Positions 7,096 through 8,825 of a stretch of DNA of 64,000 nucleotides are shown here, piece after piece (within the stretch, counting starts at the first letter, position 1; each line of letters starts with the position of its first letter). The notes under the pieces were generated by a model, which saw only the letters and a list, made by a program, of their open reading frames with translations, was not told where the DNA came from and ran no database searches. The stretch comes from Actinomycetota bacterium (GTDB lineage: Bacteria > Actinomycetota > Actinomycetes > Actinomycetales > Microbacteriaceae). The translations under genes were made by a program, and so were the position numbers. Location of the stretch: contig JAUZFP010000094.1 of the NCBI GenBank assembly GCA_030838475.1, forward strand, positions 1 through 64,000. The letters are read 5' to 3'.

Positions 7096-7145
7096 GCTCA
7101 ACAGGACGAATTCGGCCTCGGGGTTACTCAACAGGAGAATTCGGG
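7096..7145. repeat. Left pair of 20-bp repeats: GCTCAACAGGACGAATTCGG - 10 bp - ACTCAACAGGAGAATTCGGG
   Basis: Read directly at 7096-7115 and 7126-7145; inverted counterparts at 8130-8179. Confidence 0.85.
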
Positions 7146-8029
7146 AGTGTTGTGCTGACCGCTCCTGTTACGTCGACTTCAGGTCGACCGGACCTGAGCC
7201 GGGCGAGGATGACGTCGATGCACCACTCCAGTTCGAATTGGATGAGCTGATAGTCGAAGCGGAGGCTGCCGAAGCTGCCAAGGACGGCGTTTCCGTCTCG
7301 CACCCGGTCCCGATGCTGGCTACTGGGCGGGTCGTGGAACTGACGGCTATCGACTTCGACGATAAGCCAGTCGTCTATCAGCAGGTCCACGAAGCCCACT
7401 CGATTGATCGCCGCTTGCGGTTCGACCTTCAGCCCGGCTGCCGCGCATGCAACGCGAAGTTTCGACTCAGTGCCGGACATGGATCGACTATCCAGCTCTC
7501 GACGCATCCCGCGAAGATGCCCCGGCAGCGCTTCGAGAAGGAGACCGAGCCCGGCCGCACTCAGCATCCGCTGATGTAAGGCGCTGTCGACTGACGCCAC
7601 GAGGGACGGCCGGTCGACCGCTCTCGCGTGCTGCACGAGCGCGTCGATGAGACTGACTCGCCACTGTCGATCGCCCGTGTTCGGGAACCGCGTGATCGCC
7701 CAGATTCGTCGCTCCCCACTCGCAACGGGTGGCAAACGGCTGGCGCTTGGCTGGGTTGCGACGACGAGGTCCTCTCCGTCAGACCAAACACCGTAGCTCT
7801 GCAAGGCCGAATGGCCGCCGAGAATTCCGCCCAACTCGAGCGCCCTCATCGCGTCGACCGGCGCGAGAGGAGAGCTGAGCCACCCGCGCCGGGGCACCGC
7901 CACTTTGCCGGCCGCGATGGCTTGTGCGATCGACCTGGTCGACACGCCCATGGAGATCAGTTGCGACCTGCGTGCAATGCCCCCGAACCGGCTCAGGTCT
8001 CGCGAAATGTCTCGTGCCACGGGGTCCAC
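7124..8029 (-). CDS. AbiEi-like N-terminal domain plus DUF559-like (Vsr/PD-(D/E)XK-type) C-terminal domain protein
   Basis: RFGGIARRSQLISMGVSTRSIAQAIAAGKVAVPRRGWLS winged-helix-like start, C-terminal VDLLIDDWLIVEVDSRQFHDPPSSQHRDRVRD; start chosen at GTG 8029 (VDPVARDISRDLSRFGG) rather than the track ATG 8248. Confidence 0.7.
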   Translation of the reverse strand: MDPVARDISRDLSRFGGIARRSQLISMGVSTRSIAQAIAAGKVAVPRRGWLSSPLAPVDAMRALELGGILGGHSALQSYGVWSDGEDLVVATQPSASRLPPVASGERRIWAITRFPNTGDRQWRVSLIDALVQHARAVDRPSLVASVDSALHQRMLSAAGLGLLLEALPGHLRGMRRELDSRSMSGTESKLRVACAAAGLKVEPQAAINRVGFVDLLIDDWLIVEVDSRQFHDPPSSQHRDRVRDGNAVLGSFGSLRFDYQLIQFELEWCIDVILARLRSGRPEVDVTGAVSTTLPNSPVE

Positions 8030-8129
8030 GGTGAAGGATATTTGACGGCAAGAACCTGCCAATGGCGATTCTGTGGAGGTGATCGACGCAGACTGGGATG
8101 TGTTCGACAGGAGGCGACTCCGGGCATGA

Positions 8130-8179
8130 CCGGAATCGTCCTGTTGATCGAGCCAGACACCGAATTTCTCCTGTTGAGT
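8130..8179. repeat. Right pair of repeats, inverted relative to 7096-7145
   Basis: Minus strand reads ACTCAACAGGAGAAATTCGG (8179-8160) - 10 bp - GATCAACAGGACGATTCCGG (8149-8130). Confidence 0.85.
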
Positions 8180-8246
8180 CCGAATGTGGCCGAATCGGAA
8201 CACAAAATGGGGCCGCCGTTCAGGGGAGCGGTGTCGAATAGCTGTC

Positions 8247-8825
8247 ATGAGCGAAGCCCGGGTCGCCTTCTACGGCGACTCATACACACTCGGCGTCGGC
8301 GCAACGAGTCCGGTGCGGCGGTGGTCGACGATCGTCTGCGCCGCGCGCGGGTGGCGAGAGTTCAACCCGAGCGTCAACGGCCTCGGCTTCGTGCGGAACC
8401 GCACAAACTTCGGCGACGGCGACCTGCCAAGCCAGATCGTCGCGAGCAGACCCGACATCGTGTTCGTCGCGATGGGCCTCAACGACAACTTCGGATTCGC
8501 CACCGACTCCGATCGGATCCGGGTGCAGGTCTCGACCGACCTCGAATACCTGCGGCTCGCACTGCCGATGGCGCGCTTCATCGTTGTCGAGCCGTTCTGG
8601 TACACGGATGACCGTCCGGACTCACTCAGCGTGATCACCGGTTGGATCAAGGCGGCGGCCGAGTTCATCGACGCCGACTACATCATCGGGGCCTCCCACT
8701 GGCTCGAGCACCACCCGGAGTGGATGGCCGCCGACGGGCTGCACCCGAACGTCGACGGCTACGCGCGTATGGCCGAACTGATGGATGTCGCGCTCGCCGC
8801 GCTGCGACTGCCGGCCCTGGTCTGA
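8247..8825 (+). CDS. SGNH/GDSL-type hydrolase
   Basis: VAFYGDSYTLGVGA (GDS block), GLNDNFG block, DGLHPNVDGYARMAE catalytic DxxH. Confidence 0.85.
   Translation: MSEARVAFYGDSYTLGVGATSPVRRWSTIVCAARGWREFNPSVNGLGFVRNRTNFGDGDLPSQIVASRPDIVFVAMGLNDNFGFATDSDRIRVQVSTDLEYLRLALPMARFIVVEPFWYTDDRPDSLSVITGWIKAAAEFIDADYIIGASHWLEHHPEWMAADGLHPNVDGYARMAELMDVALAALRLPALV

Follow-up and report, generated by a model that had tools for sequence, protein, structure and literature searches.

Nuclease genes bracketed by their own inverted repeat doublets in actinobacterial genomes

The AbiEi/DUF559-like nuclease gene in the window (the whole stretch of DNA that was analysed, 64 kb) is flanked on both sides by an inverted repeat module, and inverted repeats, mostly with a sequence particular to the locus, likewise stand on both sides of its homologs in the same genome and in sister genomes. 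Modules without a gene are scattered through the genomes. We find it probable that a system similar to REPIN/RAYT is at work here, with an unrelated nuclease as its enzyme, and that this nuclease recognises DNA in double-stranded form.

The cassette in the window and its protein

Four units of 20 bp, read from the window sequence, surround the gene, two at each end and in opposite orientation, and the start-to-start spacing of the units is 30 bp on the left and on the right alike (Table 1). The sequence-only reading had described these paired and inverted repeats with their period around the gene, and the description was correct at every position. The four units are the sole matches to CTCAACAGGANNAATTCGG with at most 3 mismatches within the 64 kb; over 100 dinucleotide shuffles the mean was 0.13, and four matches were never reached. 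At each end there is also a third unit, A', which is degenerate and inverted and lies 35 bp further inward from A2. The repeat unit is a two-site inverted doublet, with a three-site version in the window, and to call it a simple terminal repeat is wrong. A simple terminal-inverted-repeat transposon was considered and ruled out: the ends are two- or three-site modules, copies without a gene are frequent, and there is no target-site duplication.

Table 1. Features of the cassette, in window positions.
Feature	Position	Strand	Basis or remark
Left outer repeat unit (A1)	7096-7115	+	Direct sequence reading, shuffle test
AbiEi-like + DUF559/Vsr-fold nuclease gene (predicted)	7124-8029, ORF open to 8248	-	Probable start GTG 8029
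Left inner repeat unit (A2), overlapping the final codons of the gene	7126-7145	+	Direct reading, shuffle test
Left inverted third unit (A')	7163-7171	-	7/9 match to TCCTGTTGA
Predicted Vsr-like nuclease domain, residues 184-283	7181-7480	-	Structure model; residues E188/D215/E225/D227/H232/D241/D245
Predicted AbiEi-like part, winged helix = residues 1-56	7469-8029	-	Extent taken from homolog model, residues 1-187
Right inverted third unit (A'), strand opposite to right A units	8104-8112	+	8/9 match
Right inner repeat unit (A2)	8130-8149	-	Direct reading, shuffle test
Right outer repeat unit (A1)	8160-8179	-	Direct reading, shuffle test

It had also been proposed that the inner left unit supplies the last codons and the stop of the gene (NSPVE*), and the open reading frame (7124-8248, minus strand) confirms this. 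A C-terminal tail encoded by the downstream doublet is seen in several of the proteins, those of loci L028, L033, L034 and L040 and that of the window (7124-7145). A search of Rfam gave no RNA element at the repeats, and its sole match was elsewhere, a ZMP/ZTP riboswitch at L014:6039-6122.

The GTG is probably the start of the gene rather than the ATG at 8248, since the alignment of the homologs points there. As for the name AbiEi/DUF559-like, the single protein gives it weak support in Pfam, where DUF559 had an E-value of 0.089 and AbiEi_4 was below the cut-off (E 8e-4), but the family profile and the structure model back it. The profile matches the DUF559 structure PDB 3hrl with E 2.4e-9, and in the model of the window protein (pLDDT 65.8) the nuclease domain resembles 3hrl (Z 11.5, rmsd 2.0, 89 residues), the homing endonuclease I-Bth0305I (3r3p, Z 11.3) and Vsr (1cw0, Z 10.5). 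The model of a homolog was better (pLDDT 74.3), and its residues 1-187 match AbiEi 6y8q with a middling Z of 6.6 (rmsd 4.7, 172 residues). The window protein carries all the residues listed in Table 1, and E188, D215, D241 and D245 are invariant across the 14-row alignment; L122, which has stops, and L117, by choice, were omitted from the alignments used for folding. As modelled, the protein is an AbiEi-like part fused to a Vsr-fold PD-(D/E)XK nuclease, the activity of which is predicted.

Pfam scans of the proteins gave AbiEi_4, MTES_1575, DUF559, AbiEi_3_N and a weak FCD match, and no match to the Y1 family (HUH/Y1 domain). PHROGs and NCBIfam gave no useful name. TnsA was also in the list of structure matches, with a Z of 6.5 that is too weak to build upon. 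At the window locus there is no partner gene within the bracket, no AbiEii/DUF1814 toxin gene beside the nuclease gene and no sign of an intron; the neighbours are asd and a GDSL lipase gene.

Brackets, dispersed copies and specificity

A family profile built from 14 homologs matched in 137 of 199 genomes sampled from the bacterial family, in 58 of 78 genera, and in a sample across the phylum it matched in 19 of 396 genomes, 10 of which are outside the family. The homolog loci include Glaciihabitans, Lacisediminihabitans, Rhodoglobus, Frigoribacterium and Microbacteriaceae. The bracket test looked for a word of 15 letters that forms an inverted doublet, spaced by 30-130 bp, on both sides of the gene, with a maximum score of 45. 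The set of 80 unique loci consisted of the window itself, 70 loci that the family search had supplied and 9 from the search of the genus; they were picked among the best-scoring matches and are not a random sample. A score of at least 38 was reached by 55 of them, at least 40 by 43 and at least 42 by 36, leaving 25 below the threshold. In the control run, made with 79 loci including two duplicates, 56 of the 79 reached 38; displaced windows did so in 1 of 80 cases and shuffled flanks in 0 of 79. When upstream and downstream flanks of different loci were paired, 10 of 79 reached 38, because many families share a CAGGA-like core. The window cassette itself scores 34 and fails this generic doublet test, since its arrangement is triple and the third units are degenerate. 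Among loci outside the bacterial family 5 of 13 reached 38, and in some of them the repeats are unrelated ones, for instance GATCGTACTGACCCG, GATAAACCCCGGCTT and GAGCAGACGTAAAAG, where the gap is equal on both sides (58, 38 and 41 bp).

The sequence-only reading had suggested looking for further copies of the repeat and for DUF559 genes beside them. Copies are plentiful in the own genome of the window (G000, 3.23 Mb in 173 contigs, 86% complete): the A unit has 53 matches with at most 3 mismatches, where the reversed control has 7, and with at most 2 mismatches there are 21 A-type sites as compared to 0, 2, 2, 3 and 1 in five sister genomes. The full A-A-A' triple is present in 13 further dispersed regions (14 were examined, and L020, with a single unit only, was excluded). 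With the two cassette ends included there are 15 triples, and the distance from A1 to A2 is 30 bp in every one. From A2 to A' it is 35 bp in 13 triples, among them both cassette ends and 11 of the 13 dispersed copies; the other 2 have 36 bp. Of the 15 triples, 14 have an A' unit with 8 or 9 of its 9 letters matching, as compared to 0.8% of shuffles, and the letters between the units vary. The dispersed copies are not beside DUF559 genes. The DUF559 genes of this genome are on contigs C8, C24 and C81 only, and therefore none of the 13 dispersed triples adjoins one; the contig of the window was found to hold none of the dispersed A-type triples. Repeats that are widespread with no link to DUF559 genes had been named as a finding that would count against a mobile cassette. 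The idea survives, because 55 of the 80 homologs have a bracket of their own. The link is that every gene has a repeat type of its own, and that genomes holding the gene are enriched in this type.

Many of the A triples (L010-L012, L014-L017, L021 and L022) are followed by a similar second module, in which a GGAGGAGATTTT-like unit occurs two times at a distance of about 30 bp and then in inverted form, and several of these composites are bounded by AAAAGCAGCACGGAT and ATCCATGCTGCTTTT. It was considered whether this B module is a separate family with a gene of its own, and this was rejected: the 57 matches in the own genome (13 for the reversed control) were mostly scattered singles and gave no indication of a second gene. 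A second and apparently broken homolog with its own inverted repeat is found on the same contig as the window but outside it (G000:C81:69058-69889).

The specificity of the repeats is also seen between genomes. The genomes G003, G004 and G005, which hold the corresponding gene, have 24, 31 and 22 sites of TTCGGAAATTCAGGAG, while G000 has 6 and G001 and G002 have none, and the reversed control gave 0 in all of them. In G451, a single-contig genome from another family, there are four doublets of the gene's repeat, all with a gap of 58 bp, two at the gene and two elsewhere, and four related genomes have 0-3 isolated matches. The single-contig genome G174 has three doublets, all with a gap of 72 bp, two at the gene and one elsewhere; its repeat forms two doublets in the congener G073 and has one isolated match in total in five other genomes. 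Across 52 loci the similarity of the repeats correlates with the identity of the proteins (Mantel r 0.363, the highest of 5000 permutations being 0.313). Most protein pairs with at least 50% identity have the repeat in common, and pairs below 40% mostly do not. It is likely that the protein reads its own doublet, a binding that is predicted here.

Spacing, position and turnover of the doublets

The distance between the two arms of a doublet varies in steps of about 11 bp, or one turn of the DNA. In the regions of G003-G005, gene-flanking doublets included, 35 doublets had gaps of 82 bp (20), 71 (4), 92 (3), 104 (3), 81 (2), and 70, 103 and 138 (1 each). We compared the gaps on the two sides of the gene for the 40 loci with a score of at least 40 and like orientation. 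They differ by 0-2 bp in 31 of the 40, and in the remaining nine the differences are 10, 11, 11, 11, 11, 13, 22, 23 and 43 bp (p 3e-4 against uniform). The arms are about 23 bp long, the pairing fades further out and the stem is not fully paired. Spacing by whole helical turns suggests that the proteins would sit on one face of duplex DNA. PMC7319586 describes two AbiEi-type proteins that bind inverted repeats of 23 bp, the gap being 3 bp for one and 13 bp for the other.

The copies are mostly found at the 3' side of genes. Of 41 copies classified, 7 were inside genes and 2 at contig edges, and these were excluded. Convergent gene pairs hold 18 of the remaining 32 intergenic copies against 34 of 231 background pairs (p 8.5e-7), and divergent pairs hold 1 of the 32; genes were called here by a simple script based on codon scores, and background pairs were taken at any distance. 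With doublets counted by hand, clustering near the gene was significant in G003 (p 2e-5) and G004 (p 4e-5), and it was not seen for the A type. Some doublets lie within coding genes and are apparently in frame, at the same place of an FtsJ-like methyltransferase gene in three species (L127:1811, L137:1962, L142:2027) and at the same place of an FGGY kinase gene in two (L130:2019, L138:1963).

At a single intergenic site followed across eight species a doublet is present in six and the site is empty in G003 and L119. The doublets have gaps of 82, 104 and other lengths, and once there are two of them. A copied pair in G005 has spacers 83% identical and ends at its arms, the 70-bp flanks being at background level (0.63, 0.66). 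In most dispersed copies the arms are common and the spacers are not, which suggests that many are old or kept by selection, and not freshly copied. No target-site duplication was found at 24 dispersed doublets (direct repeats of the flanks 2.67, null 2.86). The two members of the copied pair, near-identical doublets of gap 104 at L140:2031-2931, are separated by about 660 bp, an arrangement that might allow DNA other than the gene to be bracketed, and no trace of a decayed nuclease was found between them. The gene of L034/L139 (G005:C80) has one flank in common with the L027/L031 locus and the other with the L033/L040 locus, which suggests a rearrangement between two such loci.

A look for empty sites in close strains had been suggested, and one was found: in the close sister G002 the junction of asd and the GDSL gene is 127 bp long and without the nuclease gene. 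Four other sisters have neither a nuclease nor a GDSL gene match beside asd. The empty site of G002 (L144:1441-1567) holds a different inverted pair (GTTTGCCCC ... GGGGCAAAC). Of the compact mobile or selfish cassette of about 1.08 kb that was first proposed, the bracket is real and G002 is without the gene; its movement as a unit is putative. No transposition between strains was observed, and the signs of mobility are presence and absence between species and the one copied pair.

A model for the doublets and its alternatives

In the model that we favour, the protein would recognise its own repeat of about 20-24 bp by the winged helix, and two inverted repeats on one face of the duplex would form the working site, so that the spacing is fixed or shifted by whole helical turns. 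In the A type a third site in direct orientation would be added 30 bp further out. The gene would stand between two working sites, with gene-less sites scattered through the genome, mostly 3' of genes. The bound nuclease would then cut the DNA, and repair would copy the doublet, and at times the bracketed gene, into new intergenic places; binding, cleavage and copying driven by cleavage are what we infer here. That the nuclease is what spreads the doublets has about an even chance of being right. Tentatively, this could be a separate class of actinobacterial miniature mobile DNA, in which a Vsr-fold nuclease with a complete AbiEi-like reader propagates phased doublets and its own gene by cut-and-repair copying; the REPIN/RAYT life style would then have arisen independently, and with no transposase.

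The doublets could instead be operators, with the protein as an AbiEi-like autorepressor and the dispersed doublets as its regulon. Doublets do occur upstream of the nuclease genes, with conserved arms and unconserved spacers, and AbiEi proteins are described as binding inverted 23-bp repeats in their own promoter, with gaps 10 bp apart between two of them (PMC7319586). However, the same doublet is also downstream of the gene, the dispersed copies prefer convergent 3' regions and are almost never divergent (1 of 32), some are inside the FtsJ-like and FGGY kinase genes, and their position turns over among species. The fused nuclease would also be left without a role, and we consider this explanation unlikely. 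The size of the doublets, which is like that of REPs, and their 3' position could also mean that they are passive hairpins, either terminators or REPs, that owe their movement to an unrelated transposase, for instance a RAYT, with the nuclease gene merely caught between two. It is hard to see, then, why every nuclease gene is flanked on either side by a repeat type of its own, why the repeat tracks protein similarity, and why the spacing is locked to about 11 bp when the stem is not fully paired; we give this little credence.

A role in defence or addiction would agree with the AbiEi homology and the Vsr-fold nuclease. Its own doublets would then restrain or direct the nuclease, which would attack DNA that has or lacks them, the dispersed sites being protective or decoys. 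But the PADLOC match to AbiEi is weak (E 0.012) and the bracket in the window has no partner gene, only asd and a GDSL lipase as neighbours, and such a role seems very improbable. That the arrangement is an artefact of assembly or binning in a fragmented metagenome-assembled genome is hardly credible: G000 is in 173 contigs and 86% complete, but the same anatomy is seen in the single-contig genomes G451 and G174 and in other families.

The preferred reading, a nuclease that reads its own doublets, gives a testable role to a gene family of actinobacteria that is large (137 of 199 sampled family genomes) and poorly annotated, and it suggests that REPIN-like repeat populations have two origins with enzymes that are unrelated. 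A target of its own is predicted for every gene, and there are therefore dozens of natural protein-DNA specificity pairs for tests of binding and cleavage. In one open-licence library of papers, none was found that ties DUF559 or AbiEi to such repeats.

REP/RAYT had been named as a precedent, and the organisation fits the comparison. As in REPIN/RAYT systems, each repeat type goes with a single-copy gene that has inverted doublets on its flanks, and gene-less doublets with conserved arms and variable spacers are dispersed extragenically; spacings of 71 and 110 bp are given for Pseudomonas REPINs in PMC3116915. The system is not a RAYT, since enzyme and tag were tested and differ. The enzyme is an AbiEi-like part with a Vsr-fold nuclease and no HUH/Y1 domain match, and no GTAG/CGTC tag, as defined in PMC3733652, is common in the list of repeats, where a CAGGA-type core is common to many families. 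Unlike in REPINs, the steps of about 11 bp point to duplex DNA and not to a single-stranded hairpin. The CGTC-tagged REPs without known transposase are likewise dispersed palindromic repeats unexplained by RAYTs, but their tag differs, and as far as the description in PMC3733652 goes no association with a nuclease is reported. A classical insertion sequence differs by its target-site duplication, of which the 24 doublets showed none.

The resemblance to the autoregulating antitoxins AbiEi and Rv2827c of type IV toxin-antitoxin systems lies in the winged helix with a second domain, predicted from the 6y8q match of the homolog model, and in inverted repeats of about 23 bp, for which PMC7319586 gives a gap that differs by 10 bp between two such proteins. 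The proteins here differ in the fused nuclease, in having no adjacent toxin gene in the window, and in repeats that stand on both sides and are dispersed. With Vsr, I-Bth0305I and DUF559 they share the predicted nuclease fold (Z 10.5-11.5) and the conserved E/D/H/D positions. They differ from these in the fused AbiEi-like part and in the bracket of their own repeats, and the window locus shows no sign of an intron.
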